DNA of 64,000 nt from a virus: the IMG/VR virus record IMGVR_UViG_3300028840_001747, positions 1 to 64,000 of that record; one strand, 5' to 3'. Shown piece by piece: positions 9,046 through 63,091 of this stretch. Both the position numbers and the translations under genes were made by a program. The notes under the pieces are model-generated. The model did not search any database and was not told the DNA's origin. It worked only from the letters and a program-made list of their open reading frames with translations. Positions within the stretch are counted from its first letter, which is position 1; each line of letters begins with the position of its first letter.

Positions 9046-9503
9046 GGTTTATATGTTCCTTTTTTAATTTGTTGGTTTACAAACTTCTCAATGTCTTTAG
9101 AATCGGCACCAGTTCTATGTGACGCAATCATCATTGTTCCTTTCGCCTTTTCAACGTTCCCCGGTTGATCCCAATCTACATCGCCAGAATATTCCAATGG
9201 AATATACTCAATAAGAACAGGATAAGAAGCATATGAATTACCACTGATCATATCAAATTTGGGTTTACCGGAAATCTTGAATTTTTTCATAAGAATACCA
9301 TAACCTTTTCCAGGATTGTTGATTCGTCTCCACCAACCATCTGTCTCCAAACGATACCAAGCGGTCATTCCATCTATCTTTCTATCTAATGTAAGTTGTA
9401 CTTTATTTTGATTCGGTGGATCACTCTCTTTATTAAGAAAATCAACTGCTTCAACTACTAAAGTTCCCTCAGTTAAAAATTTACGCCATTGTTTGTTGTC
9501 CAT
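9042..9503 (-). CDS. Small protein with type I tag ending in FLTE-G (putative internal head protein)
   Basis: I place the start at the ATG at 9503, giving 153 residues beginning MDNKQWRKFLTEGTLVVEA. An ATG further upstream at 9530 would put the first codons inside the promoter motif, whereas 9503 has GGGAGA at good spacing and makes the N-terminus match the tags MDKKTWNKILNENTL at 61494 and 61758. FLTE-G is close to the FLTE-A site where T4 gp21 cuts gp23. The body is beta-rich, with two Trp-rich segments (TAWYRL, GWWRRI) and DVDWDQPGNV; I do not recognise it. ATGA overlap with the next gene. Confidence 0.62.
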   Translation of the reverse strand: MDNKQWRKFLTEGTLVVEAVDFLNKESDPPNQNKVQLTLDRKIDGMTAWYRLETDGWWRRINNPGKGYGILMKKFKISGKPKFDMISGNSYASYPVLIEYIPLEYSGDVDWDQPGNVEKAKGTMMIASHRTGADSKDIEKFVNQQIKKGTYKP

Positions 9504-9531
9504 CATTCTCTCCCACAAATAGTTTTCCATA

Positions 9532-43708: not shown

Positions 43709-44055
43709 TATTTCTCAAATACCCTTTTCTTGTTGTGTACCCATTTATCCATTTGATAAATAAATCCACCATTTTCTTTTTCAATTATTTCTAATCCATA
43801 AATAGGCTCTTTTCCTGGCGTCCCAGCAAAAAATAGTCCATTATTATCTCTATCTAAATCACTTTCACCAGGTTTTAACAAGTCTGATAGCTTAGTCCAA
43901 CCAATGAGATTTATTTTATTCATTGATTCAAGTCGCCATTGTTCCCACTTTTTATCAATAATATTATTCGGGGCATGCGACCACGCTAATTCGCCCATCG
44001 CCATGTCGGTTTCCGCATTGGATACTTCCTTTAATAATTTCTTTAAACTAATCAT
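43708..44055 (-). CDS. Small protein with LKKLLKE tag
   Basis: A 115-residue protein starting MISLKKLLKEVSNAETDMAM. The next upstream gene product begins MIKLKKLIKEDLIGQ, so the pair share an N-terminal helix ending in L/I-K-E, similar in plan to the head-core tags at 53780 and 59876. The rest is mixed, with INLIGWTKLSDLL and KEPIYGLEIIEKENGGFIYQ. No family recognised. Overlaps both neighbours by TAATG; weak binding site, so expression probably depends on coupling. It may be a packaged protein encoded away from the head genes. Confidence 0.5.
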   Translation of the reverse strand: MISLKKLLKEVSNAETDMAMGELAWSHAPNNIIDKKWEQWRLESMNKINLIGWTKLSDLLKPGESDLDRDNNGLFFAGTPGKEPIYGLEIIEKENGGFIYQMDKWVHNKKRVFEK

Positions 44056-44414
44056 TAATATTCTATCTTTTTCATTACAAATTTATATTTTGGATTTTTT
44101 CTTTCTACTTTCTTTACATATTTCTCAGGTACATCAACATTAGATAACCCTAACATAAATGTATCTGTATCTTGATACCGTTCCCAAGCAATATATCCCT
44201 TTCTACTATCTAATGGAATATCTAACCATTGAGATAAATGTAAATGTAATGTTTTCCACGCATCGTCAACAACATATAAATCTCCGTTAGGCATACTCAT
44301 TCCTCTCAACCCAGGTTCCATTCTTCTAATAGATTTAGGGTTTTTATATACGTCAAATTCATCGAAAATTTGACCAATTAAATCTTCTTTTATTAATTTT
44401 TTTAACTTAATCAT
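44055..44414 (-). CDS. Small protein with LKKLIKE tag
   Basis: A 119-residue protein starting MIKLKKLIKEDLIGQIFDEF, sister in its first ten residues to the next gene product. The centre has MSMPNGDLYVVDDAWKTLHL and a Trp/Tyr-rich stretch (KGYIAWERYQDTDTFML), and the C-terminus is basic. No family recognised. It overlaps the gp15-like gene by ATGA, with GGGGTAA as binding site. Shared tag but unrelated bodies suggests a common address signal. Confidence 0.5.
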   Translation of the reverse strand: MIKLKKLIKEDLIGQIFDEFDVYKNPKSIRRMEPGLRGMSMPNGDLYVVDDAWKTLHLHLSQWLDIPLDSRKGYIAWERYQDTDTFMLGLSNVDVPEKYVKKVERKNPKYKFVMKKIEY

Positions 44415-50794: not shown

Positions 50795-52432
50795 TTAAAC
50801 TTGATCAATATGACCCACATATATCTTCCCGTAAAATTCTGGCCTTACGATTTTCTTCGCGTAACGAGTCATAACGCCTCTGCGAGGAGTAAAATTATCA
50901 GGATCATAAATCAATGGAGTCATAATAAGTGGAATGTAAGGTGAATACACAGCACCAGTTTCCAAGAAATTACTTCCTCTAAATCCGACCAAAGCGATAT
51001 TTTCAGTAAGGTAAGGATTTTTGTAAACGGTGAAACGTGAATTCAACATACCAACTTTTTGTACACCCATTGCGAATGATTGTTGGTTTCCATCAGTATC
51101 AGCAGCATATCCAGGAATAGATTCAATAACGGTAGCAACGTCAGGACTAACAACGATGAAGTTAGCTCCACCGCGAAGTGTTAATTGATGAATTTTGTTA
51201 CTTACTTTTTGAATCTTATTTCCAAGAGTTTGATACCATTCATTCTTTGTACCAGTATGAGAACCAGCATCATAGAAATTGGTTTTACCATTGTTAATTT
51301 CATATCCAGGAAGAGCTGACCAGTAATCAGTAGTAATAGCGTTAGAAATAAGCATGTCAAGGATTTCTAAGTCAATTTCCATTCCAATATATTCACTCAA
51401 GAGAGCAGTTAACTCAGCTTCAGCGTCAATAGAGTGATATGCGTTCAAGTCTTGAGCCAATTCAGGAGTCCAAATAGCTTTCAACTTACGAGTTTTGGCG
51501 ACGATAGGTTCTTGAGCAACCGACAAGTCGATTTCAGGAATATCAAGTTTAACAAGACTTCCAGACTCAGAAGTATCTTCGAAGTCACCACGAGTATCAG
51601 CAGTAGGTTGTTTGTGATAACGAATATCATATTCACTTGCTGAGAAGTTAGCGAATGCAGCAGCACTACCAGAAACGATCCATCTTACTGTAGCACCAAC
51701 TTGAGTTGTGTAAGCAGACAAATAAGATTGAATACCACTACCACTAACAGAAAAAGCACGAACACCTTCGACATCAAGGTCAGATAAGTTACCAGTGTTA
51801 TATGAAAGAGCGAAAAGTGTACCGGCAGCCATAGAAGCACTAATATGACCATCGTCAAAACCAACATCAGCCCATGTGACAGAAGCAGTAGCGAAAGCGT
51901 CACCACTTGGAGTAGTATCAAGATCAGCAGTTCCGCCATATCCATAATCATTAATTGAGTATCCGAAACGTCCACCACCGTAAAGACCACCAGTAGCTTC
52001 ATCAGTCGTTCCAGGAGTTTTACCACCACCAGTTCCACCAAAAACAGATTGATTTTGGGTAAAACCAGGTTGTGTACCACTACCATACTTAAAGTCAATG
52101 TAAAATACAAGACCGGATGGTAAGTTCATAGGTTGAATCGATACGAATTCTTTAGCGGCAACTTCACCGAAAATTCTACGTACCAAAGGAAGAGCGACAC
52201 CAGACCATTGTTCAGCACCACTACCACCAGTTTGAGAAACTTCGTCCAATAATTGGCGAGCTTGATTCTCTAATAGAATAGCCATTCCATAAATTTCATG
52301 TTCTTCGTTCATACCATCAAGAAGACCTGTTGGCTCCCATTTTTTCACGAGTCCACGAGTTTGCTCTAAAAGAGCATCATATGGATTTTGACCTTCCATT
52401 AATTTGTTTAAATTAAATAAGGTTTTACTCAT
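50795..52432 (-). CDS. 23: Major capsid protein (gp23)
   Basis: A 545-residue protein. The N-terminal 64 residues form a charged helix ending QARQLLDE, followed by VSQTGGSGAEQWSGVALPLV, RRIFGEVAAKEFVSIQPMNL and GLVFYIDFKYG, the usual opening of mature T4-like capsid proteins. LLDE-V at 61-65 is an expected gp21 cut site; T4 gp23 is cut after residue 65. The HK97-like core continues to FYGKIYVGHIDQV at the end, with YSPYIPLIMTPLIYDPDNFT and RRGVMTRYAKKIVRPE before it. T4 gp23 has 521 residues. Preceded by TTATGGAGAAATAAA, and directly downstream of gp22. Confidence 0.95.
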   Translation of the reverse strand: MSKTLFNLNKLMEGQNPYDALLEQTRGLVKKWEPTGLLDGMNEEHEIYGMAILLENQARQLLDEVSQTGGSGAEQWSGVALPLVRRIFGEVAAKEFVSIQPMNLPSGLVFYIDFKYGSGTQPGFTQNQSVFGGTGGGKTPGTTDEATGGLYGGGRFGYSINDYGYGGTADLDTTPSGDAFATASVTWADVGFDDGHISASMAAGTLFALSYNTGNLSDLDVEGVRAFSVSGSGIQSYLSAYTTQVGATVRWIVSGSAAAFANFSASEYDIRYHKQPTADTRGDFEDTSESGSLVKLDIPEIDLSVAQEPIVAKTRKLKAIWTPELAQDLNAYHSIDAEAELTALLSEYIGMEIDLEILDMLISNAITTDYWSALPGYEINNGKTNFYDAGSHTGTKNEWYQTLGNKIQKVSNKIHQLTLRGGANFIVVSPDVATVIESIPGYAADTDGNQQSFAMGVQKVGMLNSRFTVYKNPYLTENIALVGFRGSNFLETGAVYSPYIPLIMTPLIYDPDNFTPRRGVMTRYAKKIVRPEFYGKIYVGHIDQV

Positions 52433-52462
52433 TTTATTTCTCCATAATCATTTTAATTATCA

Positions 52463-53584
52463 TTACTTTTTGTTGTGATTAATAAGTTTGTGAATGCGGC
52501 TTTTCACTTCATTATCTTCATTGACGATTTGTTCTTTATCAACTTTCTTTTCAGAATCAGTTGATTGAACAACAGAAGAAGCACCTTCAACTAAACGTTG
52601 TGTTCTTTTGTTTTCTTTCTTTTCGCCAACCGCAAGGTTTTCCATAAGTGTAGCAAAAATAAGTTTTACTTCACGTACATTCTTAGCACGATCAAAATTC
52701 TCAATGACTTTAACCTTGGCTTTGTTGTCAAGATTATAACCACGAAATACTTTATTCGTGAAAAGAAGTTTTGCATTCAAAATGTTCGTTTCGTTAATGA
52801 CTTTACGTTGTTTTTTGATTGCAGATACAGCTTCACCAAGTTGAGCTTTAAGTTCAGCTATTTGATTTTCAAGAGCAGCAATTTGTCCAGGATAATCGAT
52901 TTCATCAGCTTCATCAACAAGACCTTCTAAGTCTAATTCTTCATCGTCCTCAACTTCATCTTCAACTTCAGGTTCTACTTCAACTTCAGGTTCTACATCA
53001 ACTTCAGGTTCCGCTTCAACTTCGGCTTCAGGTTCAACTTCAATGTCAAGTTCTTCATCTTCGTCGTCGTCTTCTGTTACTTCCATTTCCATTTCATCTT
53101 CCGGTTCCATTTCCATTTCTACCTCGTCGTCAACTTCAACTTCATCGTCGGCTTCTTCTTCTAATTCACTAATAACGGAATCAAGATCAAAATCCTCGTC
53201 CAACTCAACATCTTCAGTCAATCCAGAATCTTCTTGAGCTTTTTCACCAGCTTTAACTTCAGTTTCACCACCAGGATCTTCAGTAGTTTCTTCAGAAGAG
53301 GCTTTTGAAGGCTCTTTGTTATCACCTTGTCCAATATCAGACGAATCTGCAACTTCCTCTAAAGATTCATCTTCAGTGAGACCGGAATCTTCTTGAGCCA
53401 TTTCAAATTCTTCCTCTAATTCGACATCTTCCTCAACTTCATCCATCTCGGATTGAATTTTTTTGGTGATGACAGAATGAATTTGCGGTTCAAACGCTTC
53501 TTCAAGAGCAGCTTTAGCTTGTGCTACAGCCATTTCTCTCATAGCTTTTGCGTCTGCAATCGCTTCTTTAATTAAATTACTCAT
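52463..53584 (-). CDS. 22: Prohead scaffold protein (gp22)
   Basis: The ATG at 53584 (MSNLIKEAIADAKAMREMAV) has TTGGAGAAACGTA before it; a longer frame from 53620 lacks a site. The 373-residue product has a helical N-terminus, a very acidic centre (residues 45-235, mostly Glu, Asp and Val), two copies of AQEDSGLTEDESLEEV-like sequence, then a coiled coil (YPGQIAALENQIAELKAQLG) and a basic C-terminus with RLVEGASSVVQSTDS. This is the plan of T4-like core scaffold proteins, which shape the prohead and are cut up by gp21. Sites such as LIKE-A, LEE-A and LVE-G fit. Directly upstream of gp23. Confidence 0.9.
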   Translation of the reverse strand: MSNLIKEAIADAKAMREMAVAQAKAALEEAFEPQIHSVITKKIQSEMDEVEEDVELEEEFEMAQEDSGLTEDESLEEVADSSDIGQGDNKEPSKASSEETTEDPGGETEVKAGEKAQEDSGLTEDVELDEDFDLDSVISELEEEADDEVEVDDEVEMEMEPEDEMEMEVTEDDDEDEELDIEVEPEAEVEAEPEVDVEPEVEVEPEVEDEVEDDEELDLEGLVDEADEIDYPGQIAALENQIAELKAQLGEAVSAIKKQRKVINETNILNAKLLFTNKVFRGYNLDNKAKVKVIENFDRAKNVREVKLIFATLMENLAVGEKKENKRTQRLVEGASSVVQSTDSEKKVDKEQIVNEDNEVKSRIHKLINHNKK

Positions 53585-53711
53585 TACGTTTCTCCAATAT
53601 TTTAATATGGAATTTAACACTATTCGGTGAGTGTCAATGACATTATAATAGTTACTACGTGACGTTATATAAGATAACGTATTTAGGTAGGTCTGATTTT
53701 TTCAAATCATA

Positions 53712-53739
53712 TATAAATATATAGAAAAAAGCGAAACGT
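53712..53739 (-). promoter_or_regulatory. Late-type promoter with ACGTTTCG box, for gp22-gp23
   Basis: On the minus strand ACGTTTCG (53739-53732), ten bases, TATATTTATA (53721-53712). The box is also the 3' arm of the terminator just before it. About 130 bases of leader separate it from the start at 53584; I see no frame in this leader. Confidence 0.75.
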
Positions 53740-53758
53740 GCCATTTTTCACGTTCCGC
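53725..53758 (-). terminator. Rho-independent terminator fused to the gp22 promoter
   Basis: GCGGAACGTG and CACGTTTCGC pair with one mismatch around a short A-rich loop, followed by TTTTTTC on the minus strand. Ends the head-core unit 22 bases after its last gene. Confidence 0.8.
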
Positions 53759-53779
53759 TAAAGAAAATAAAGAAACTTT

Positions 53780-54103
53780 TTATTTTAAAGAGTCCGTTTT
53801 AGAAATATTACCTTTACCAATAGTACCTTTTACTACTACAGCGTTTCCTTTAGGAGTTATTTCTAAACCCTTTGGTTTTACGTGATGAATAACTATATCA
53901 CTTTTCTTTTTCGCCAATCCTTTTTTCATGGCGGCCATGATCGCGTCCTCTTTTGATTTCGCTAACCAAATGTTCTTGTCCTTCGTCTTTGAAGAATCTA
54001 ATGGAAGTTTTACATCACTTGTAGTTCCATGATACAGCGTCGCTTCGTTTAAAAATTTATTAACTTCCTCTTTAATGATTTCTTTGAGTCTTTCCATTTT
54101 CAC
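53780..54103 (-). CDS. Minimal ADP-ribosyltransferase-like protein with type II N-terminal tag
   Basis: A 107-residue protein starting with GTG behind GGAGAAATAAA. Residues 1-21 read MKMERLKEIIKEEVNKFLNE-A, a tag shared with the protein at 59876 (RLNEIIKEEVQNFLLNE-N) and ending in a gp21-type L-N-E-A site. Directly after it comes TLYHGTTSDV, then NIWLAKSKEDAIMAAMKK, a DIVIHHV strand and AVVVKGTIGKGNIS. LYHGT followed by a strand with A..A helix and a closing V-V-K-G-x-I strand is the layout of ADP-ribosyltransferase folds. The usual catalytic Glu before the last strand is not visible (Asn or Ala there), so activity is uncertain. T4 Alt is a packaged ADP-ribosyltransferase, a suggestive parallel. 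Confidence 0.5.
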   Translation of the reverse strand: MKMERLKEIIKEEVNKFLNEATLYHGTTSDVKLPLDSSKTKDKNIWLAKSKEDAIMAAMKKGLAKKKSDIVIHHVKPKGLEITPKGNAVVVKGTIGKGNISKTDSLK

Positions 54104-54116
54104 TTTATTTCTCCAA

Positions 54117-54359
54117 TTATAATGATTGTCGCCGTGTCTCGTGTCTCTGACGAGCCTTAGCTTTAGAAAGTTTGTCTCGTTTGATTGCAGATGGTTTTGT
54201 GTATTGTTGTGTCTTTTGTATGTCCAACATTAACTCACTATCTTTTATTATTCTCTTTAATTTCTTTAACGCATACTCTAAGGCTCGATCCTTATCAATC
54301 TTTTTATTTAATTCAACATAATAACCTCTTAACCGTATGTTATCTACATTCTCTGGCAT
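54117..54359 (-). CDS. rpsU: Phage ribosomal protein bS21
   Basis: I choose the ATG at 54359, which has a perfect AGGAGGT site (the strongest in the window); a start at 54392 would add 11 residues with a weaker site. The 80-residue product has VELNKKIDKDRALEYALKKL (15-34), LDIQKTQQYTKPSAIKRDKL (45-64) and a basic tail KAKARQRHETRRQSL. The order short strand, helix of about 20 residues, Y-x-K-P-S and a basic tail is that of bS21, which sits by the anti-Shine-Dalgarno end of 16S rRNA. Phages are known to carry bS21. It could replace the host protein and favour phage messages. Placed among head-core genes. Confidence 0.85.
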   Translation of the reverse strand: MPENVDNIRLRGYYVELNKKIDKDRALEYALKKLKRIIKDSELMLDIQKTQQYTKPSAIKRDKLSKAKARQRHETRRQSL

Positions 54360-54361
54360 AA

Positions 54362-54370
54362 TACCTCCTG
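54362..54370 (-). promoter_or_regulatory. Perfect Shine-Dalgarno site of the bS21 gene
   Basis: AGGAGGT on the minus strand, five to six bases before the ATG at 54359. Most other genes have only GGAG. It decides the start of this gene. Confidence 0.7.
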
Positions 54371-54403
54371 TTGTTTTGCTTCTTTGTGACATTTATATTA
54401 CCT

Positions 54404-54706
54404 TTATTTTTTTAATCCTCGTGCTAATTCACGATAAAATTTTGCTATTTTTTGAGCAGCCATAATGTCAAGAGACGCAAAAGCATCATGATAATCACTA
54501 CTTTTAGGCTCCCTACTCGGCAACGCAGCAATTAATTTTTCTTTCATTTCATCAGTATCATTTTGATCTAATAAATCAGTTACTGATACTATATCGTCAG
54601 CTATTCTTAATAAATAACTACTCACCACTCCAGCTACTCTATCAACTTTATCTTCCGTTATTAGAGTATTCTCATTTAAAATCTTGTTCCATTGTTCTTT
54701 TTTCAT
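54404..54706 (-). CDS. Small protein with type I tag (putative internal head protein)
   Basis: A 100-residue protein starting MKKEQWNKILNENTLITEDK, the same tag as at 61494 and 61758, with two possible gp21-type sites (I-L-N-E and L-I-T-E). The body is helical: VSSYLLRIADDIVSVTDLLD, SLDIMAAQKIAKFYRELARG. I recognise no family. Leader AAGGTGAAATAAT is nearly identical to that of the tagged gene at 8819. A shared tag on unrelated bodies suggests an address signal; capsid packaging is inferred from T4 precedent and from its place among head genes. Confidence 0.62.
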   Translation of the reverse strand: MKKEQWNKILNENTLITEDKVDRVAGVVSSYLLRIADDIVSVTDLLDQNDTDEMKEKLIAALPSREPKSSDYHDAFASLDIMAAQKIAKFYRELARGLKK

Positions 54707-54707
54707 A

Positions 54708-55577
54708 TTATTTCACCTTGTTATATTCTCTCTCTTGAACAGAATCACCTAATACATAAGTGTTAAACAATACTTCTAATCCCGTTCCAGTTTTAAACTG
54801 AGCATTTAAGAACTTGTCTTTTTTGACAAACTTTTCCATTTTTTTCTTATCAAATTTAGCAGCTTCACTCAATCGACCAATGACTTTTGTCAAAGAGTTT
54901 GTTGGTACTTCCACTTCAAACAAACCAACATCCCCACCACCAACAGTCGCCATATTATCATTGATTTCATAAATCTTTACACTACCATTTCCTCTTGTTA
55001 TTTCAGTATTAACTTTCTTAACATATCTTGGAGTTGGATTGTGTTTTCTAATGACATTCATATTGACTTTCGCCCGATCACCTTGATATAAAGTTGTGTC
55101 GGCGTTTGCGGTAACAGGTGGAGCTTCTTCAGCAATCGAAGCAATCTCAAAATACCTGTTGAGAATATGACCCATATCTTCATATAAGGACGCCATACGA
55201 TCTTGATGTTCTTGGACGGCAGACGCTACCTTACCAAATTCACCGGAAAAGGTTTTCAATTCTTTCATATTTCGTTGAATAGTTACACCGTCAAACCAAT
55301 CGTTAGCACCTTCGATTGTGTATTGTTCGGCGAACGTAGCTATTTCACTTAACGATTTCGCTAAATCGACAAGATTTCCTTCACGATAAATCATTTTACC
55401 AAGTTTATTATATTCCTTAATAGAATTCATTATACGTTCTTTTACATCAGCAGGAATTTCTTGTTTTTGTTCGAAATAGTTTTCCTCAATTAATTCTTTT
55501 CTCATTTCTTCTCTTGCTTCAAAATCTTTTTGTTCTTCTTTAGAAAAGAAATGATCTACTAATTTCTTTTTCGCCAT
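54708..55577 (-). CDS. Unrecognised 289-residue protein of the head-core cluster
   Basis: A 289-residue protein with no tag: MAKKKLVDHFFSKEEQKDFE opens a charged helical N-terminus up to about residue 150 (with NSIKEYNKLGKMIYREGNLV and QEHQDRMASLYEDMGHILNR), followed by a beta-rich domain (NTEITRGNGSVKIYEINDNM, GDVGLFEVEVPTNSLTKV) and a C-terminal part with GTGLEVLFNTYVLG. I do not recognise it. GGGAGTAATAAA precedes its ATG. It may be a core or head assembly protein by context only. Confidence 0.6.
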   Translation of the reverse strand: MAKKKLVDHFFSKEEQKDFEAREEMRKELIEENYFEQKQEIPADVKERIMNSIKEYNKLGKMIYREGNLVDLAKSLSEIATFAEQYTIEGANDWFDGVTIQRNMKELKTFSGEFGKVASAVQEHQDRMASLYEDMGHILNRYFEIASIAEEAPPVTANADTTLYQGDRAKVNMNVIRKHNPTPRYVKKVNTEITRGNGSVKIYEINDNMATVGGGDVGLFEVEVPTNSLTKVIGRLSEAAKFDKKKMEKFVKKDKFLNAQFKTGTGLEVLFNTYVLGDSVQEREYNKVK

Positions 55578-55620
55578 TTTATTACTCCCTTTATTTATTT
55601 ACATTTTTTTCTTGACTTTT

Positions 55621-57432
55621 TCACTTTTTTTTCGTAAATTTCTTGATTTTCCCTTTTAAAATATTAACTAATTTATCTATATCTTCCTCAGTTTTTATCT
55701 TTTTCTTTGTTCCATATAATAACTCGGCATCAGATCGTCCTCTCTTATCAGTACCAACAACCGCTATTTCTACCTCAACAATATTACCATATATTGATAC
55801 ATCCAACACAGTTTTCCAATCATCCGATTGTATAGATGTCCCTTTACCAGGAACTAAAGTTAAATTCCAACCTCTTTTTCCATAACGTCTAATTTTATTG
55901 TCTAATGTCTTTAGTTTTTTATCTAAAAGAGTACCTATTCTTCTTTCACTTAATTCATTTTCTTCTGTTACTAATGTATTCTCTTTTAACTTATTTGGTT
56001 TAAACTGTATTCGTTGTCTCATTTTTCCTGGATATGGTTCTAATTCAAGTGTATAACTACCATCATTGTTTTTATGTAACCACACACCATCATGTCCAGT
56101 CCCCAAACCAAAACCAGCTTTATTTAATTTAGCAACCAACTTACCAGCATTCTTTAATGTCAATTCACCTTTAGATACCACTACTTCACCATCACCATTA
56201 TCAGCAACATATTTAGACGCTTCATTCATCATTATTTCTTTCACTACACTACGAATAACTTCTTTTATTTCGCCCATCATCATTTCATCATGGCGAAAAT
56301 CTATGTACGCTTCCATACTTGGTTGATCATCAATTTCACCGGATTGAATGTACATCAATGTATCTTTAGCTAATTCCTTCATTTCCTTAGCGTTATATTT
56401 ATACTTTTTCTTAGCATACTTGAGTCCATCTTTTACCATATCCTTGTCAGATTTGATTTCATTCACTCCCTCTCTGCGGGCTTTCTCTCCAGCAGATGCT
56501 TGAGCAAAATGTTTGTATTGTTTTTTAGTCATTCCACCTTTTTTACCACCTTTTTCTCCAGCACTGGCTTTAGCAAAATGTTTGTATTGTTTTGGAGTCA
56601 TTTTTTCGTCAAGTATGTCGCCTTCTTTTAACTCGGATAAATCGGGCGCGTATATCATTTGAAACTTTGATCCAGGATTTTTTATCCGGTCTGCTTTCAT
56701 CCTCGTCAAACAAGTATTCTTGGACGCAATACATTGTACCACTCCATCACGAGTATATCCGTATTCAGCGTCAGTTGGTAAATCAGTTACAGTATTTTCC
56801 TCAACACTCTCTTTTATAGTTTTCAACATATCAACAGGAATTACCATTTCACTACCCTTCATATGTCCAGTCAATATTTCAACATCGGCTAATTTGTCAG
56901 TCGAATAATTCATAATTCTTCCAGTGTCGCCTTTCAAACTTGTAAAGTTCTTAAAAAATTGTTTTGGAATATATTTCGATGTTACTTTATATATTTTTAC
57001 TTTATCTCCGATACCTTCATTCATTGTACTCTCCTTTACAAGTAAATCTGCATTGTTGATATATCCTTTTTCTTTTCCAACTTTTACTATAGCGTACCCG
57101 CTCGCTGGAGCTTCGTCACTTACTTTACCCATTTTACCTTTATGTTTTCCATACATTACTTTAACTTTCGATCCAACAGGTATTTCACTATCAGGATATT
57201 CCTTAGAATAGTTTATCCAACCTTCATTTACACTCTCAGGAACTTCCTCAGGTAATCCCTTATGTTTTGTCTTAGCAAACTTTTCAGTATCCTTGTCTTT
57301 CATTGTTTTAGCAATACCTTTGATTTTATCCTGCAACGCCTTAGGAAGTTTACCCATTTCTAACTCACCCTTTTCATAGGCATGTACCATACCCATTAAT
57401 CGTTGCTGCGATTTACTCACTGCTGGACACAT
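55621..57432 (-). CDS. Modular head-core protein, possible polyprotein cut by the prohead protease
   Basis: A 603-residue mosaic. Residues 1-50 (AVSKSQQRLMGMVHAYEKGE) resemble small DUF3008-like proteins; 86-133 look like a KOW barrel (VGSKVKVMYGKHKGKMGKVS); 140-210 match the N-terminal module of the gene at 57446. Residues 278-322 are two tandem copies of MTxKQYKHFAxASAGEK; 386-405 resemble the type II tag (IKEVIRSVVKEIMMNEA); 406-480 and 495-603 are two further unknown domains, with a type I-like LKENTLVTEEN between. Gp21-type sites lie at the borders: VNE-G (68-71), MNE-G (137-140), MNE-A (402-405). I infer a polyprotein; function of the parts is unknown. Confidence 0.6.
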   Translation of the reverse strand: MCPAVSKSQQRLMGMVHAYEKGELEMGKLPKALQDKIKGIAKTMKDKDTEKFAKTKHKGLPEEVPESVNEGWINYSKEYPDSEIPVGSKVKVMYGKHKGKMGKVSDEAPASGYAIVKVGKEKGYINNADLLVKESTMNEGIGDKVKIYKVTSKYIPKQFFKNFTSLKGDTGRIMNYSTDKLADVEILTGHMKGSEMVIPVDMLKTIKESVEENTVTDLPTDAEYGYTRDGVVQCIASKNTCLTRMKADRIKNPGSKFQMIYAPDLSELKEGDILDEKMTPKQYKHFAKASAGEKGGKKGGMTKKQYKHFAQASAGEKARREGVNEIKSDKDMVKDGLKYAKKKYKYNAKEMKELAKDTLMYIQSGEIDDQPSMEAYIDFRHDEMMMGEIKEVIRSVVKEIMMNEASKYVADNGDGEVVVSKGELTLKNAGKLVAKLNKAGFGLGTGHDGVWLHKNNDGSYTLELEPYPGKMRQRIQFKPNKLKENTLVTEENELSERRIGTLLDKKLKTLDNKIRRYGKRGWNLTLVPGKGTSIQSDDWKTVLDVSIYGNIVEVEIAVVGTDKRGRSDAELLYGTKKKIKTEEDIDKLVNILKGKIKKFTKKK

Positions 57433-57445
57433 ATTTTATCTCCTA

Positions 57446-58006
57446 TTATCTTACACTATTTACAAGTTTATACGCTTGTTTCAACGCTTTAGCTGCGTGT
57501 TTAGCACTTTGAAATACTTCGTAATCTTCACCAATGTTTACCAACTCATTCAATCCATCTTCAACATCGGCTAATAGATTTTTGTAGTATTTGTAATCAG
57601 GTTTTTCTTTCTCTTGTAATGGCTGTCCTTGTTCATCAAGAAATTTTTCGCCTTTTTCATTAAATTGTCCAGGAAGTCCTTTAAACTCAAAATTATCTTC
57701 CCTTTTTGGCGACAATCCTACAACTTGACCCACTGGTAATAAACTTGAAATCATTACCATTCCTTCATCTAACTTTTCTTTTTTAGATGTTTTGTTTTCA
57801 CCTACATTTTCTTTTAAAGGTTGTATTACATCAATAGGTACAACAATCGTAGCACCTTTCCATTCACCATCTAACATTTTAATGGTTACAGAATCTTCAG
57901 GTTGAACTACTCCAGAATCACCTACAAATTTTTTAAAAGTGCTTCCCGAAATCTTCCCTTTGGCGCGATGAATTTTTACTTTATCACCGGGTTTAAATTT
58001 AGCCAT
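57446..58006 (-). CDS. Modular head-core protein sharing modules with both neighbours
   Basis: A 186-residue protein. Residues 1-66 (FKPGDKVKIHRAKGKISG to PIDVIQPLKENV) match residues 140-210 of the protein encoded at 55621. Then KKEKLDEGMVMISSLLPVGQ begins a 50-residue module (residues 78-127, with NFEFKGLPGQFNEKG) nearly identical to residues 91-140 of the protein at 58020. LDE-G at 79-82 marks the border and fits gp21 cleavage. The C-terminal 60 residues are helical. GGAGAAATTAA before ATG. Function unknown; prohead core is inferred. Confidence 0.6.
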   Translation of the reverse strand: MAKFKPGDKVKIHRAKGKISGSTFKKFVGDSGVVQPEDSVTIKMLDGEWKGATIVVPIDVIQPLKENVGENKTSKKEKLDEGMVMISSLLPVGQVVGLSPKREDNFEFKGLPGQFNEKGEKFLDEQGQPLQEKEKPDYKYYKNLLADVEDGLNELVNIGEDYEVFQSAKHAAKALKQAYKLVNSVR

Positions 58007-58019
58007 TTAATTTCTCCAT

Positions 58020-58709
58020 TTATTTAAAAGGTTGTATCTTTCCTAATTTTGACATTTCTTTTTCAAATGCTTTAAAAGCATCTTCAACTGTTTTTTCAAT
58101 TTTCTTCGGATCGGCTTCTTTCATTTTGATAGTCCACGTATGATCATTACCAAAACCAAAACTAACTTGATAATAATCCCAAAGTTTTGTTATTCGAACA
58201 GGAAAATATGTATTTATTATATTTTTTGGACGAGGGCTTAAATATTCAGTATCCCTTTTTTCGTTTATAGTTTCTTCCTCAATCTTATTACCCATTTCAT
58301 CTAATACCTTTACGCCTTCTTCGTTGAATTGACCAGGTAATCCCTTAAACTCAAAATTGTCTTTTCGTTCTGGCATTAAACCAATGACACCACCAACAGG
58401 TAAAAGGCTCGACATCATTACCATACCTTCATCAAGTTTTTGCTTACTTTCACTTACAACTTTTTTCGCAGCAGCAAGCACATCTTTTTGATTTGTTTCA
58501 ATCTCCTTTACAGCAGCTACAAAGAATTTTTGAGCGACACCCTTTTCACTCTTAGCTTTTTTCTTCGCTTCCTCATACATATCAAGAAACATCTGTGACG
58601 CTTCTTTTTTGTCTTTAGCTTTCTCAATACTCTTTGCACGAATTGTCCAATCTTTAGTCAATTTTGCTACAGTAGCAATATCTTTAAAGAATCCTTCATC
58701 TAATTTCAT
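58020..58709 (-). CDS. Modular head-core protein with two LDE-G sites
   Basis: A 229-residue protein opening MKLDEGFFKDIATVAKLTKD, then an alanine/lysine-rich helix with SEKGVAQKFFVAAVKEIETN, then KLDEGMVMMSSLLPVGGVIG and NFEFKGLPGQFNEEGVKVLD, the module shared with the gene at 57446, and a C-terminal domain with PVRITKLWDYYQVSFGFGND. LDE-G at residues 3-6 and 92-95, plus INE-K near 148, could be processed by gp21. The highly basic-acidic helices resemble T4 core proteins such as gp67/gp68 in composition only. GGAGATATAAA before ATG. Confidence 0.6.
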   Translation of the reverse strand: MKLDEGFFKDIATVAKLTKDWTIRAKSIEKAKDKKEASQMFLDMYEEAKKKAKSEKGVAQKFFVAAVKEIETNQKDVLAAAKKVVSESKQKLDEGMVMMSSLLPVGGVIGLMPERKDNFEFKGLPGQFNEEGVKVLDEMGNKIEEETINEKRDTEYLSPRPKNIINTYFPVRITKLWDYYQVSFGFGNDHTWTIKMKEADPKKIEKTVEDAFKAFEKEMSKLGKIQPFK

Positions 58710-58722
58710 TTTATATCTCCTA

Positions 58723-59028
58723 TTATAAATTTTCTATTTTTAACGCGGCTTTCCGTAGCGCCATTGTGATTTCTTCTAATAATATTTTATGAGCTTCATC
58801 AAAATTCTCTGGGCTAACATATTTACGAATATGATCTTGACCCTTTGTAATACCACTTAAACCAGCTTTATGATTACCTATAAGAGCAACAACAATCGCG
58901 TCAGCCAACCAAGCAAGTGCTCGTTTGTCTATTACTTCATTTACTTCATCTTTCATTTCTTGAAGGCGATAATCTCTCCATTTGAAACTCATATCGGTAT
59001 ATGTTTTTGCTTTCTTTTTATCTCTCAT
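58723..59028 (-). CDS. Unrecognised 101-residue protein of the head-core cluster
   Basis: A 101-residue protein: basic start (MRDKKKAKTYTDMSFKWRDY), then LQEMKDEVNEVIDKRALAWL, a moderately hydrophobic helix (ADAIVVALIGNHKAGLSG) and a final amphipathic helix with LLEEITMALRKAALKIENL. I do not recognise it. Binding site GGGGTAA. It lies between a small membrane protein gene and the modular proteins. No function can be inferred beyond its place among head genes. Confidence 0.55.
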   Translation of the reverse strand: MRDKKKAKTYTDMSFKWRDYRLQEMKDEVNEVIDKRALAWLADAIVVALIGNHKAGLSGITKGQDHIRKYVSPENFDEAHKILLEEITMALRKAALKIENL

Positions 59029-59032
59029 TGAA

Positions 59033-59248
59033 TTACCCCTTATATTTTTTCTTCAATACATAAGCAACAAAAATTAACCATAACGGAACGATCAACGCGA
59101 ACGGCCATCCAAATACGGCAGCAAGAAGTCCGCCACCCGCAATCAATCCACACAACATTACAATCGTTTTCCAATGTTTGAATGAATATTCTTGAGCATC
59201 CTTGATCCACTCATTCCACTTTACCAAAAATTTTTCCCAAAAATTCAT
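59033..59248 (-). CDS. Small membrane protein
   Basis: A 71-residue protein with two adjoining transmembrane helices: TIVMLCGLIAGGGLLAAVF (29-47) and WPFALIVPLWLIFVAYVL (48-65), flanked by a Trp/Lys-rich start (MNFWEKFLVKWNEWIKDAQE) and KKKYKG at the end. T4 starts prohead assembly on the inner membrane with help of the host and gp40; a small membrane protein next to gp21 might have a similar role, but this is speculative. GGGAGAATAAAA before its ATG; two bases downstream of gp21. Confidence 0.62.
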   Translation of the reverse strand: MNFWEKFLVKWNEWIKDAQEYSFKHWKTIVMLCGLIAGGGLLAAVFGWPFALIVPLWLIFVAYVLKKKYKG

Positions 59249-59250
59249 TT

Positions 59251-59859
59251 TTATTCTCCCATATCTATAAGAATATCAGTTACGATTTCTTGTACTTTAC
59301 AATATTTGTTTACACATACTTGACCATACTTATCAACACTTTCTTGAATAGGTTTCATAAACGCACCGTGTGTCGATGGATTACTTACCATATCAAAAGC
59401 AATCAACTCAAAATCGTCTTGGACGACCGCACCATGTTCAGCAGATTCTTGAACCGATCCCAACCCACGAGAAGAAATACCTACAAGAATACCACCTTTC
59501 AATAATTCTTGAAGAATTTTTCCTGCAGGAGTATTCAACACTTCTATTGTACCGATTAAGTCTTTACCTTCCCAATGCATTTCAACTATATTATGACTTA
59601 CATTAGCTAAGTTTACGACAGAAGAATCGGGATGATCTAACTCACCCAATGCTCGTTTTTCGCCAATCAACTGTTCATATTTTTTCGCTTCCCTGGCGAG
59701 AATAGGTTGTGGATATACACGACCATTTTGATTTTGTGCTTCTGCTCGTTGTAATATACCCTTGATCAAAATCTTACCATTGTGTACTTTCATTGATTCT
59801 CGTATTACACCACCCGCTATTTCTAAAGGCATATACTCCGCTAATATCTGCTTATTCAT
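59251..59859 (-). CDS. 21: Prohead core protease (gp21)
   Basis: A 202-residue protein, close to T4 gp21 (212). It has KGILQRAEAQNQNGRVYPQP (33-52), LGELDHPDSSVVNLANVSHN (71-90) with the likely catalytic His76, GGILVGISSRGLGSV (122-136) with Ser129 or Ser130, and LIAFDMVSNPS (152-162). This is the full motif set of T4-type prohead proteases, which cut scaffold, capsid and internal proteins after [L/I]-x-Glu. GGAGAATAAAG before its ATG. Its own substrates are probably gp22, gp23 and the many tagged proteins of this cluster. Confidence 0.93.
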   Translation of the reverse strand: MNKQILAEYMPLEIAGGVIRESMKVHNGKILIKGILQRAEAQNQNGRVYPQPILAREAKKYEQLIGEKRALGELDHPDSSVVNLANVSHNIVEMHWEGKDLIGTIEVLNTPAGKILQELLKGGILVGISSRGLGSVQESAEHGAVVQDDFELIAFDMVSNPSTHGAFMKPIQESVDKYGQVCVNKYCKVQEIVTDILIDMGE

Positions 59860-59875
59860 TCTTTATTCTCCACTA

Positions 59876-60532
59876 TTATTTTATAGGTTTTTTCAAATTT
59901 TTCAAGGCTTCTTGTTTCGCTTTAATATCGTTTTCTAAATCTTTTATTGTAGAATTTAAATCACTTTTATTTGATTCAAGAGCAGTATACCAACTACCTT
60001 TTTTACCAATTTTTTCAAGAGATTCATTCCGTGTACGAGCATATACAGCAAACAAAGGAGTTCCCATACTATTGCCTTCCATATCACTTTGATATATCAA
60101 AAATAATTTTTCAGGAACTACTTTTGGATCAATCTCAACTAATTCATCATCAGAAAAACTATATCTATAAACATTTCCTTTCTTTCCATTAAATAAATAT
60201 ACATCTCCGTAATCTTTATTCCTTTTCGCTTGAGAAAATAAAGATTTGATTTTATTTCCCGCAAATTCTACATACCAATCGGCTAATACACCAACTTCTT
60301 TCGGCTTTCTTGTTCTTGGATTACCATAATTTTTCCAATTATCCATAGTCCAATCTGATACATCCAAGTTAGGAGTATTCTTTAGAGCATCCAAAAATTT
60401 ATCTCTATTTTTCAAAGTAAGTTTGACGGCTTTCTTACCATATTTCTTAAAAAACGCACCACCAACATTTTCATTCAATAAAAAATTTTGAACTTCCTCT
60501 TTAATTATTTCATTCAATCTTGAACGTTTCAT
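59876..60532 (-). CDS. Protein with type II N-terminal tag (putative internal head protein)
   Basis: A 218-residue protein opening MKRSRLNEIIKEEVQNFLLN-EN. The tag is nearly the same as that of the ADP-ribosyltransferase-like protein at 53780. The body has FFKKYGKKAVKLTLKNRDKF, VLADWYVEFAGNKIKSLFSQ, DVYLFNGKKGNVYRYSF and a C-terminal coiled coil (SNKSDLNSTIKDLENDIKAK). No family recognised, though the LYLFxG and later FLIYQSD strands suggest a compact enzyme-like fold. Directly upstream of gp21. I infer packaging into the head, as for T4 internal proteins. Confidence 0.58.
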   Translation of the reverse strand: MKRSRLNEIIKEEVQNFLLNENVGGAFFKKYGKKAVKLTLKNRDKFLDALKNTPNLDVSDWTMDNWKNYGNPRTRKPKEVGVLADWYVEFAGNKIKSLFSQAKRNKDYGDVYLFNGKKGNVYRYSFSDDELVEIDPKVVPEKLFLIYQSDMEGNSMGTPLFAVYARTRNESLEKIGKKGSWYTALESNKSDLNSTIKDLENDIKAKQEALKNLKKPIK

Positions 60533-60541
60533 TTTTTCTCC

Positions 60542-60919
60542 TTATACCCACATTTGACGTTTCTTAAATAAATCAAAAAAGACGGCAGCAATCTCGGCTC
60601 GTATTATATCTTTAATCTCTGCAAAATCTTTTCTACTCAATGCTTCATCTAATCTTTGTTGTTGTAATTGTCTTTCCTCATAAAGAATAAGTAAATTGTT
60701 GTCTAACTCCGCTACCGTCTTATTTTTATCATACCATGTAAAACCATGCACCTCTTTTTCTTCGTCAGTATATTTTACTTTCATTCTTTTAAGTTGTTTA
60801 AGAGCTTCTGCTTTGTCTTTTACTCTAATAAATACTTTACCTTGAGAAGGCAATCCCTTAAACTCTTTTATCATTTCTTCACGAATAATTTCTTTTATTC
60901 TATCTTTTGAAATTTTCAT
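60542..60919 (-). CDS. Tagged protein with conserved VFFDLFKKR C-terminus
   Basis: A 125-residue protein opening MKISKDRIKEIIREEMIKEF (type II tag) and closing DFAEIKDIIRAEIAAVFFDL then FKKRQMWV. I associate the closing VFFDLxxKR motif with small proteins near portal and protease genes of marine T4-like phages, possibly prohead core proteins, but I cannot name a T4 gene. The middle has KVFIRVKDKAEALKQLKRMK, a ferredoxin-like strand-helix, and a coiled coil. Weak site GGTAAAGAT. Note that both ends are similar helices (IKEIIREE and IKDIIRAE). Confidence 0.58.
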   Translation of the reverse strand: MKISKDRIKEIIREEMIKEFKGLPSQGKVFIRVKDKAEALKQLKRMKVKYTDEEKEVHGFTWYDKNKTVAELDNNLLILYEERQLQQQRLDEALSRKDFAEIKDIIRAEIAAVFFDLFKKRQMWV

Positions 60920-60923
60920 ATCT

Positions 60924-61487
60924 TTACCTTATCTTTTTGGCGGCCGCATTCATTTTACCTGAATCCAACACTTGTTGTATCAAATGATATGTATCTAATG
61001 GATTAGCATATCCAAGTTTTTTATGTTCCGTACTTAAAAAATCTAATATGTCTTTCCTTACTTGATTTAGTGTTTCGCCAGTGAAATGTAATTCATTGAC
61101 CCTCTCACCACCTAAATTATCCTCACCAGGTTCCTCAGTCAAATCTATTAAATCCCACGACATAGGCCAGTTGTATTTTATGTTCTTTATCTTTTCACCA
61201 CTTAATCGGGCTGCTTCATCTCGTTTCATTGTCGTTGTCGGTGTGTGAATGTTTCCACCTTTGTAATACTCGCCCGTTGTCTTTCGTTGTAATAAATAAT
61301 ATTTATTCTTATCAACATCAATACTATTTGGAGTCATTTGTTGCCCAACTGGCTTTATCGCTTCTTGTCTAATTTTAGGATTAAGAAGTTCTTTCATTTT
61401 TATAGGATTTTCATTCAATCTATAATATGTTGAACGATCATACGCATCCTCTTTTCCTAACATTTTATACCAAAGTTTTTTATCCAT
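60924..61487 (-). CDS. Protein with diverged type I tag
   Basis: A 187-residue protein starting MDKKLWYKMLGKEDAYDRST, then YYRLNENPIKMKELL. The first nine residues follow the type I tag (M-D-K-K-x-W-x-K-x-L); L-N-E-N follows about 15 residues later than in the other members, as if a short stretch were inserted. The body has KNKYYLLQRKTTGEYYKGGN and NYWPM-like KYNWPMSWDLIDLTE, and helices at the end. No family recognised. AAAAGGGATAAAACG before the ATG. Putative internal head protein by tag. Confidence 0.55.
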   Translation of the reverse strand: MDKKLWYKMLGKEDAYDRSTYYRLNENPIKMKELLNPKIRQEAIKPVGQQMTPNSIDVDKNKYYLLQRKTTGEYYKGGNIHTPTTTMKRDEAARLSGEKIKNIKYNWPMSWDLIDLTEEPGEDNLGGERVNELHFTGETLNQVRKDILDFLSTEHKKLGYANPLDTYHLIQQVLDSGKMNAAAKKIR

Positions 61488-61493
61488 TTCGTT

Positions 61494-61748
61494 TTATCCC
61501 TTTTGAGCATCCATTATACGAGCCCTTACCCATTCTTGTAATTCTCTAAGCATTAACAACTTGATCATTTTATGATCATATGGTACATTCACTCTTTTTT
61601 TGATAAAATCCATTTGTTTCATTTCAGCTTTAACCGCAGCATTTATCACTTTATTTAGAACTTCTTTAGCAGCTTTCGCATCATGATTTTTATCTTCACT
61701 AACTAAAGTGTTTTCATTTAATATTTTGTTCCAAGTTTTTTTATCCAT
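61494..61748 (-). CDS. Small protein with type I tag
   Basis: An 84-residue protein opening MDKKTWNKILNENTLVSEDK. The first 15 residues are identical to those of the next upstream gene product. The rest is helical: AKAAKEVLNKVINAAVKAEM, KMIKLLMLRELQEWVRARIM. No family recognised. AAGGAAGAATC before ATG. With the gene at 61758 it makes a tandem pair with the same tag and unlike bodies, the best evidence in the window that the tag is an exchangeable signal. Confidence 0.62.
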   Translation of the reverse strand: MDKKTWNKILNENTLVSEDKNHDAKAAKEVLNKVINAAVKAEMKQMDFIKKRVNVPYDHKMIKLLMLRELQEWVRARIMDAQKG

Positions 61749-61757
61749 GATTCTTCC

Positions 61758-61967
61758 TTAAAAAGTAATTTCAATTTTCTTAGGCTTATTTTTCATTTTT
61801 TTTATTAACGCAACTAACTTATCATATAATTTTTGATCGTGATCGTGTTTTTTATCAGATGTATTATTAAAAATAATAACTGTACCTTGATAAGACGCAA
61901 CAAAATCATTCCCACCTTCATTTAAAGTATTTTCATTTAAAATTTTATTCCAAGTTTTCTTATCCAT
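61758..61967 (-). CDS. Small protein with type I tag
   Basis: A 69-residue protein opening MDKKTWNKILNENTLNEGGN, which holds L-N-E-N and L-N-E-G; the second fits the gp21 rule well. The remaining 50 residues have two strands (FVASYQGTVIIFNNT, KPKKIEITF) flanking a helix with HDHDQKLYDKLVALIKKMKN. No family recognised. Starts by TAATG overlap with the preceding gene, with GGAG nine bases upstream. Putative internal head protein. Confidence 0.62.
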   Translation of the reverse strand: MDKKTWNKILNENTLNEGGNDFVASYQGTVIIFNNTSDKKHDHDQKLYDKLVALIKKMKNKPKKIEITF

Positions 61968-63091
61968 TAGAATCTCCGTATCTTATTAATGATCCTTGTC
62001 ATTTTTTCATTTATCTTGTTCAAGGCTCTATGAGTATTTTTCCAATATTTTTGTGAATCAATTCCGGTCTCTTGTTTCAAACGAAGATTCAAGTCAATCG
62101 TTTTTTCTATCGATTCAAGTTGATTTCTTACGTCTCTAATGGCGACACCGATTTTTTGTTTGTTGTTCATTGTATCATCGTCACGATAATTTTGATAAGC
62201 TCCACGGCGACCCTCTTTGACCACTTTTATTACTTGACCAGAAGAATCTTCTACAGATATTTTAGCCCCTTTGTTATCCTTTTTCATCACACTAATAACA
62301 TCGTCTATCTCTTTGTGATCAGTTGTATGAAATTGATCCACTACCTTATTATTCTTTATAGCAACTATTGAATAACTTTTTCTCGCTTCATTTACACTTT
62401 CATTCGTTGATCCCATATATGATTTTATTTCATTTAAAAAATAAGTTAAATCGGACAACTCAGCTAATCCCCAACTCTCATTTCGCCGTCTCGCTAAATT
62501 TAACTTTTTAATATAAGAATCTAACTTTTTCATCATTCCTTTTTTGTCGGCTTTCGCTTCATTTATAATACCTTCCTCTAACTTGTCGCCACCACCGGTA
62601 AATGGACGCTTACCACCAAAATTACCAAAATCTTGTTTATCAGATTGAGTTACTTCTTGATATAATTCAATCGTTATTTCTTCATTCAATCCACTTCTTA
62701 CTTTCATTTCAGCAAACTTCTTACGATATACTAATGATTCTTTACGAGCATTTGCTAAATCTTCCCAATCCCGATCCTCAGGATCATTTACAAGTTTATA
62801 TCCAAGTTGTTGTGAAATTTCCCTTGTCCTATCCTTCAAACTCTTGGCGAAAGCATATGGAGTTTGGTATCCATCTTGACCGCCCATGGCAGTTACTGAA
62901 CTCACTTCGTCAAGTTCTTCATCTTTTCGTTTATCACACGTTTCATTCTTTTCACATTTCTCACACGGCGTTCCACATTCGCCAATATCACATTTATCTT
63001 TTTCCTCGTCCTCAATGTCAAATTGATCCATTTCTTGTTCAATCATTGTTCGTATCAATTCACGAATATCACTTTCATTTAAATTAGCCAT
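61967..63091 (-). CDS. Modular head-core protein with cysteine cluster
   Basis: I use the ATG at 63091 (MANLNESDIRELIRTMIEQE), behind AAGGAGAAAGTC; it overlaps the previous gene by eight bases. The 374-residue protein has a type II-like tag, then five Cys at 34-52 (CDIGECGTPCEKCEKNETC) that may bind zinc or an iron-sulphur cluster. Likely gp21-type sites are LDE-V (60-63), LEE-G (171-174), INE-A (176-179) and VNE-A (233-236). The pieces between are a helical module (180-230) and a small alpha/beta module (237-295, SYSIVAIKNNKVVDQF). The C-terminus is a long helix. Probably a core protein; not recognised. Confidence 0.6.
   Translation of the reverse strand: MANLNESDIRELIRTMIEQEMDQFDIEDEEKDKCDIGECGTPCEKCEKNETCDKRKDEELDEVSSVTAMGGQDGYQTPYAFAKSLKDRTREISQQLGYKLVNDPEDRDWEDLANARKESLVYRKKFAEMKVRSGLNEEITIELYQEVTQSDKQDFGNFGGKRPFTGGGDKLEEGIINEAKADKKGMMKKLDSYIKKLNLARRRNESWGLAELSDLTYFLNEIKSYMGSTNESVNEARKSYSIVAIKNNKVVDQFHTTDHKEIDDVISVMKKDNKGAKISVEDSSGQVIKVVKEGRRGAYQNYRDDDTMNNKQKIGVAIRDVRNQLESIEKTIDLNLRLKQETGIDSQKYWKNTHRALNKINEKMTRIINKIRRF

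Follow-up and report, generated by a model that had tools for sequence, protein, structure and literature searches.

Putative cleavable head-packaging tags on unrelated proteins of an uncultivated T4-type phage

Introduction

Why would a phage place nearly the same short helix at the start of proteins whose remaining sequences have nothing visible in common? The question is raised by a 64,000-nucleotide stretch of DNA, here called the window, that covers bases 1–64,000 of the 104,925-bp uncultivated virus record IMGVR_UViG_3300028840_001747. A first-pass annotation had noticed recurring N-termini on otherwise unrelated products of the window, and had likened them to the capsid targeting sequences (CTSs) by which phage T4 brings proteins into its prohead. 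Our comparisons of these sequences across related phages lead to the same view, to which we give a probability of roughly 80%: the N-termini would be cleavable head-packaging tags that work like T4 CTSs. Their most likely use would be to load unrelated proteins into the head, so that these enter the host with the DNA.

Much of the device is known from T4, where gp21 cuts after the Glu of L/I-X-E, CTSs are 10 to 19 residues long, head entry of internal protein (IP) III was found to need its first 10 residues, and a tag is reported as sufficient to carry a foreign protein into the head (PMC9026906). The same review has already raised the idea that a range of proteins can be packaged by T4-like phages through the CTS. 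The IPs have been described as a diverse set with only the tag in common (PMC3012670); those of T4 can inhibit host restriction systems, and in T-even phages the signal has already been used in print to find ip genes (PMC12373910). In the T4 record, IPII and IPIII both start with MKTYQEFIAE, Alt with MELITELFDE and gp24 with MAKINELLRE.

Three families of tagged genes

The window comes from a T4-type phage with a gp21 prohead protease. A 168,383-bp contig, G001, belongs to the same phage, its gp21 being 100% identical and the tagged genes of the window recurring in it at a constant offset. The tag built around a tryptophan (A) was confirmed on all five open reading frames (ORFs) for which it had been described and on one diverged copy, all on the minus strand. 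A second, IIKEE-containing helix (B) had been ascribed to four genes, of which 59876 and 53780 do carry it, whereas 60542 and 61967 are probably conserved head genes with only a loose resemblance. The earlier picture of modular N-terminal tags of two kinds stands as to modularity and falls short in number, as a third family of 10 residues (C, MIKLKxLLxE) had been missed. The tagged genes of the window, named by their lower coordinate, are as follows.

61758–61967, minus strand: A-tagged protein of 69 residues; tag MDKKTWNKILNENTLNE, residues 1–17, nt 61917–61967; body unlike the others
61494–61748, minus strand: A-tagged protein of 84 residues; tag MDKKTWNKILNENTLVSE, nt 61695–61748
60924–61487, minus strand: A-tagged protein of 187 residues; long tag ending LNE26, nt 61410–61487
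54404–54706, minus strand: A-tagged protein of 100 residues; tag MKKEQWNKILNENTLITE, nt 54653–54706
8562–8819, minus strand: A-tagged protein of 85 residues, outside the head cluster; tag MKKELWYKLLRENKLNE, nt 8769–8819
9042–9530, minus strand: diverged A-tagged protein of 162 residues; tag end LVVE27 placed by eye, nt 9450–9530
59876–60532, minus strand: B-tagged protein of 218 residues, directly upstream of gp21; tag MKRSRLNEIIKEEVQNFLLNE, nt 60470–60532
53780–54103, minus strand: B-tagged protein of 107 residues; tag MKMERLKEIIKEEVNKFLNE, nt 54044–54103; body begins TLYHGT
44055–44414, minus strand: C-tagged protein of 119 residues, one of three YKNPKS-type paralogues; tag MIKLKKLIKE, nt 44385–44414
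43708–44055, minus strand: C-tagged protein of 115 residues; tag MISLKKLLKE, nt 44026–44055

The gene at 53780 begins at GTG and reads MERLKEIIKEEVNKFLNE from the next ATG, and 9042 has the additional residues MENYLWERM ahead of its tag. When the search was extended to the rest of the genome, as had been proposed, more tagged genes were found in G001 outside the window, including further C-tagged genes at 147–152 kb. Weak matches to PHROG 25024 (E 0.0014) and PHROG 34438 (E 0.005) fell on tag regions. A variant of the A-like tag is also seen in a cultured flavophage, immuto, in which the adjacent proteins KNV73_gp076 and gp077 (L085/L495) open with MENFDLKKFLVENKLTTNSKILKE and MADNFNLRSFLTENKLTKNAQLLKE; B- and C-tags are present in this isolate as well.

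Tag anatomy and predicted cut sites

All three tags end in [LI]xE, the cut motif of T4 gp21, and the C-tag also has the T4 length of 10 residues. For the A-tag, the first-pass annotation had placed the cut behind residue 12. Among 17 short-form tags from this phage and others, E12, which stands six residues past the tryptophan, is present in 11, whereas an L-x(1-2)-E a few residues further on is present in all 17, in a selection that required the N-x-L part and left the following E free. (The loose A pattern listed 37 starts in the viral scan; those beyond the short forms are long forms or chance matches.) We therefore rejected residue 12; the cut is probably at 17/18, and after residue 26 in 60924 and 27 in 9042, both placed by eye. 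A BLAST match of 61758 in contig L006, whose gp21 is 89% identical to that of this phage, covers residues 1–17 only (59%, E 1e-3) on a different body, and stops at the same place as the revised cut.

For the B-tag, the search pattern covered residues 1–13, and the free residues 14–20 read I-x-K-V-L-N-E, with E20 in 51 of 98 tagged ORFs. What follows E20 is mostly A, N, S, K or G, and beyond that no residue is common to more than about one fifth of the sequences. For the C-tag, a pattern with a fixed E was exchanged for one with residue 10 free, to allow this position to be tested; among the 45 ORFs with gene-start evidence (of 53 listed in total), 42 have E there. The major capsid proteins of this phage and its relatives include 20 distinct sequences in which [LIV]xE is followed by A, V, T or N, from a site search that required the E.

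The two loosely similar genes were left out of the tag set because 60542 is conserved over its whole length in L005 and L006 (74%), where its N-terminus is similar, and its helix is not directly followed by [LI]xE, and because the N-terminus of 61967 aligns with residues 131–268 of a longer L006 protein, so that its start is internal there. Both are probably conserved members of the head cluster and not tag carriers.

Shared starts beyond chance on unrelated bodies

Comparing 20-residue windows between ORFs of G001, we observed 11 pairs scoring at least 45 at the N-terminus, against 3 at residues 32–51 and 0 after shuffling. The corresponding counts were 25, 4 and 0 in genome G002 and 55, 0 and 0 in G014, and G004 and G005 gave little signal, with 1 pair each and 0 for both comparisons. 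Fixed A, B and C patterns matched 5, 49 and 60 N-termini among 2,300 dereplicated ORFs of this phage and its relatives, compared with 0, 12 and 3 of 9,654 internal Met positions, the B count taking in coincidental terminase starts. In the set as it stood before dereplication, the bodies of 154 pattern-tagged ORFs belonged to 57 of 1,107 families, one of them large and chained; this count includes the starts of 7 terminases and 3 capsid proteins, which match by coincidence. Terminase starts such as MSxSLKEIIxEEYKKC were rejected as chance matches to the B pattern; a sequence filter removed them from the gp21-proximity and LxE counts, in which at least one remained (L017:2690).

On a wider scale, a DNA pattern for the commonest B-tag core (residues 1–13) matched at least 120 stretches in viral_contigs, where a scrambled pattern of the same residues matched 0, as did an unrelated 10-residue pattern. 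In 84,980 prokaryote genomes (genome_contigs), the B core was found in 3 stretches, on three contigs shorter than 8 kb. Eighty B loci among the matches listed gave 98 distinct tagged ORFs, 90 of them with an in-frame stop no more than 20 codons upstream, and the 93 bodies long enough to compare formed 87 families at E ≤ 1e-3, in keeping with the earlier impression that the proteins behind the tags are unrelated. For the C pattern, 80 loci among the matches listed gave at least 53 ORFs, whose 49 comparable bodies formed 30 families.

Tags exchanged between bodies

One case of exchange is 60924: its residues 1–26 correspond to the tag of an L006 gene (85%) and its residues 28–187 to the gene that comes next (58%). 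The L006 gene that matches the body is without that tag, and the joint lies directly behind LNE26, the predicted cut. In L005, with a gp21 also 89% identical to this phage's, a counterpart was found for 60924 alone among the window's six tagged head-cluster bodies.

Other families show the same body behind different starts. In six other contigs, gp21 is followed by FAM30, a gene with a single conserved body (xEPSEQ..., identity to the first 52–64%) behind starts that, judged by eye, are short and C-like in three contigs and B-type in three. Zeta-type kinases have a B-type start in G001 and, by eye, in L035, and a C-tag in G004, while HAD/NT5C-type bodies are C-tagged in G001, L035 and G004 and untagged in G005 and G006, where the proteins begin near the body start.

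Position relative to gp21

On its minus strand the window carries a T4-type head module, with genes at the portal and terminase positions lying outside the window. Its members other than the tagged genes include the following.

59251–59859, minus strand: gp21-type prohead protease, 202 residues, the presumed tag-removing enzyme; PHROG 207, E 3.3e-55
52463–53581, minus strand: acidic scaffold-like protein at the gp22 position, named from position and composition only; without a PHROG match
50795–52432, minus strand: gp23-type major capsid protein, in which a cut-type site, LLDE, stands ahead of VSQTG; PHROG 138, E 2.8e-70
60542–60919, minus strand: conserved protein near gp21, probably no tag carrier; full-length match in L005/L006
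61967–63088, minus strand: conserved head-cluster protein with a GYQTPYAF stretch, probably no tag carrier; N-terminus internal in the L006 counterpart

Genes with A- or B-tags lie within 10 kb of gp21 in G001 (5 of 7, p = 0.001), G002 (7 of 7, p = 4e-9) and G014 (10 of 10, p = 0.015). By gp21, the closest isolates are Microcystis phage Mel-JY01 (49.5%) and the immuto Flavobacterium phages (47%); isolated phages gave no match to window positions 52000–62000 by megablast, nor to one B-tag and three tagged-set or head-cluster genes by tblastn.

Comparison with published cyanophage virions

For S-CREM2, a T4-type cyanophage, virion proteins detected by mass spectrometry (MS) are given in Table 3 of PMC10665884. 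From the T4 tags of IPII/III, Alt and gp24 we wrote the pattern MxxPxxPPxE, where P is hydrophobic, after first regular expressions had matched only one S-CREM2 tag; it was frozen ahead of the examination of S-SCSM1 and S-SZBM1. The pattern fits C-tags, cyanophage tags and 53780 read from its ATG, and does not fit A-tags or most B-tags. In S-CREM2, it is present in 5 of 28 virion proteins that are non-structural or of unknown function, 0 of 24 structural ones, tail parts included, and 0 of 173 other ORFs, not detected in virions (Fisher p = 3.8e-5). The carriers (ORFs 6, 13, 14, 136 and 154) are a SAM hydrolase, an APH/ChoK-like kinase, a cytidylyltransferase, ORF13 and ORF136, so that proteins with T4-type tags are found in the virions of one related isolate. 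Two more S-CREM2 proteins that look tagged by eye, ORF12 (LRFASFMAE within its first 25 residues) and ORF15 (MNFSEFNES), were not counted. In S-SCSM1, the single virion match is NMNAT (MKSFLQFLKE). Pooling the two phages gives 6 of 48 against 3 of 414 (p = 6e-5), with S-SCSM1 virion labels taken from its record (48 used, where the paper gives 45) and protein classes assigned in this analysis. Going by the S-CREM2 comparison, some of the virion enzymes published for cyanophages may use the proposed packaging route. These comparisons bear on T4- and C-type tags; the A- and B-tags are tied in by tag exchange, common ending and location.

Relation to known systems

The likeness to T4 CTSs (IPI, IPII, IPIII, Alt and the gp24 propeptide) that had first been drawn proved apt: in both, a short N-terminal tag with an L/I-x-E-type end precedes unrelated bodies, and a gp21-type protease is encoded. 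In contrast to T4, the A- and B-tags differ in length and sequence, the tagged genes are numerous and arrayed near gp21 in several genomes whereas ip and alt lie elsewhere, and the cargo would include kinase, nucleotidase and nucleotidyltransferase bodies. The ejection-protein propeptides of the giant phages SPN3US and phiKZ are removed by a gp21 relative and have been proposed to act in targeting, but several exceed 100 residues and are cut after A-X-E or S/A/G/T-X-E (PMC5694885), as opposed to 10–27 residues and [LI]xE here. Virion enzymes of cyanophages (the S-CREM2 SAM hydrolase, kinase and cytidylyltransferase and the S-SCSM1 NMNAT) share T4-type tags, MKDFDSFLEE, MKRFDAFLTE, MKNFSSFLTE and MKSFLQFLKE, which are rich in F and unlike A and B; the passages that report these enzymes make no mention of a tag.

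In the open-access literature, preprints and subscription papers being outside the search, we found no paper on such tags in cyanophages or uncultivated T4-type phages. What appears to be new here is that a known device occurs in several divergent and highly mobile forms, with a much broader set of candidate cargo. A separate observation concerns T4 itself: gp61.1 (AF158101, 18966–19130), of 54 residues, opens with MKTFKEFIKED, very like the IPII/IPIII tag, and is a possible further internal protein.

Proposed mechanism and alternative explanations

As we picture it, a short amphipathic helix would dock the new protein on the scaffold core while the prohead is growing; once the prohead has closed, the gp21-type protease would cut behind the terminal [LI]xE and release the body inside the head, and the freed body would probably exit with the DNA when the phage infects a host. 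The steps that we infer are scaffold docking, cleavage and packaging in this phage, and injection. Form A would be a W-helix cut at about residue 17/18, or 26/27 in long forms; form B, M-K-K-S-E-L-x-x-I-I-x-E-E-I-x-K-x-L-N-E, would be cut at about residue 20; and form C, MIKLKxLLxE, would be cut at residue 10 as in T4.

Several results speak against head packaging. No [LIVMF]xE is present within residues 15–30 of 11 of the 98 B-tagged ORFs. A- and B-tagged genes are not significantly clustered near gp21 in G004 (0 of 1), G005 (1 of 1), G006 (0 of 1) or G010 (0 of 2), and G003 is without any. For C-tagged genes, enrichment near gp21 is mostly absent (0 of 7 in G001, with p from 0.019 in G005 to 0.58 over the five other genomes having any); in T4 itself, the ip and alt genes are distant from gp21 too. 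Among 37 B-tag contigs of at least 20 kb (G002 left out), gp21 was found in 14, and the PHROG-138 capsid gene was not found in the other 23 by a search that had no positive control. Six of these 23 have a tail sheath like this phage's and many may be fragments without a head module, but L188 and L232, both at least 100 kb, have none of the three markers (gp21, capsid, sheath). Turning to the cyanophages, the pattern was written with the S-CREM2 starts already seen and was not blind for that phage, and S-SCSM1 by itself gave 1 of 20 unknown or non-structural virion proteins against 3 of 241 others (p = 0.27), with 0 of 28 structural ones. In the two stretches of S-SZBM1 examined, tagged genes 191 and 192 are missing from the MS list of that phage (PMC9146016), and its virion cytidylyltransferase opens with a 9-residue MRFRQFIIE that the strict motif misses. 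Virion data were not found for this phage or for any phage with A- or B-tags.

Two other functions for the tagged proteins seem unlikely to us. The tags could be docking helices for a different assembly, such as the tail, the baseplate or a host target, with an incidental [LI]xE end. The C-tagged and two A-tagged genes are distant from gp21, as this would allow, and LxE is frequent by chance in E-rich helices (774 of 2,485 control 15-mers); but E occupies a fixed tag-end position although it was free in the search pattern, A and B cluster in the head module of three genomes, the 60924 exchange joint falls exactly at the cut, and none of the structural S-CREM2 virion proteins has the motif. Alternatively, the tagged proteins could be parts of the scaffold core, like T4 gp67 and gp68, that are cut and mostly lost and are no cargo. 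Their small size and head-cluster location would suit such a role, and the conserved neighbor 60542 may be of core type. We consider it equally doubtful, given that L005 matches one in six of the tagged head-cluster bodies despite its very similar gp21, that several tagged bodies elsewhere are enzymes, and that tagged enzymes of S-CREM2 were detected in finished virions. Least of all do we credit that the common starts are functionless by-products of gene duplication, or of recombination where genes begin (through a DNA-level element, for example a late promoter, a ribosome site or a target of recombination): neighbors 61758 and 61494 are identical over their first 15 residues and tag arrays stand side by side, but the tag recurs on 87 body families in many contigs, homology stops at the cut motif in the cases examined, and in ten G014 tags Leu6 uses 4 codons and Arg7 uses 3, synonymous variation under residues conserved at the protein level on which a DNA-level element was rejected and from which selection on the protein follows.

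Beyond the head-packaging reading of these N-termini, we lean slightly towards a more general proposition. T4-type phages well beyond the T-evens would share portable address labels for cargo, in the form of helix tags of several unrelated kinds that obey one grammar (amphipathic helix, [LI]xE, cut), and their free exchange would have built a very large, unrecognized set of injected effectors, including anti-defense proteins as well as enzymes with nucleotides, tRNA ends, ADP-ribose and (p)ppGpp-type signals as their targets. Injected phage proteins are usually learned only through proteomics and genetics; if the grammar is right, candidates could be listed from sequence for many uncultivated T4-type phages, small proteins without detectable relatives among them, and the cyanophage packaging route is testable on existing isolates.

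Candidate cargo

The bodies appear to be of two sorts, enzymes and small accessory proteins whose presence varies among close relatives. Outside the window, tagged bodies of this phage gave Pfam matches to a zeta-toxin kinase (E 1.6e-6), to NT5C (1.9e-5) and to a poly(A) polymerase head with RNA-binding and HD domains (1.3e-19), as well as to HD_4 (3.9e-7) behind a start judged B-like by eye. Candidate enzyme cargo would hence comprise a zeta-type kinase, an NT5C nucleotidase, a CCA/poly(A)-type nucleotidyltransferase and an HD hydrolase. Within the window, no Pfam family scored above threshold for the tagged bodies scanned, a set that did not include 8562, 44055 and 43708; a sub-threshold Bacteriocin_IIi match on 59876 was rejected as chance. 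The bodies of 53780 and 59876 returned only the same phage from viral_contigs. A single-sequence AlphaFold2 model of 53780 (predicted local distance difference test 66, predicted template modeling score 0.43) has a helix at residues 2–17 followed by strands; by eye, its motifs give a weak impression of an ADP-ribosyltransferase-like body, which a model of this quality is too weak to decide.

Other features of the head cluster

Some T4-type phages may have gp21 fusions, as the contigs behind L161, L206, L194, L189 and L197 have PHROG-207 matches in open frames of 504–670 residues; in three of these contigs, stop codons fall within the aligned span. In the window, the adjacent head-cluster genes 57446–58006 and 58020–58709 have in common the segment KLDEGMVM.SSLLPVG...FEFKGLPGQF, and the LDE-type sites inside it might be as expected of core proteins cut several times. 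The 603-residue product of 55621–57432 has DUF3008 and sub-threshold KOW matches and an internal LKENTLVTE stretch that resembles the end of an A-tag. The product of 54117–54392 has a weak ribosomal-protein-S21-like match (E 0.0085), and an RpsU/S21 gene is annotated in the corresponding cluster of Mel-JY01.

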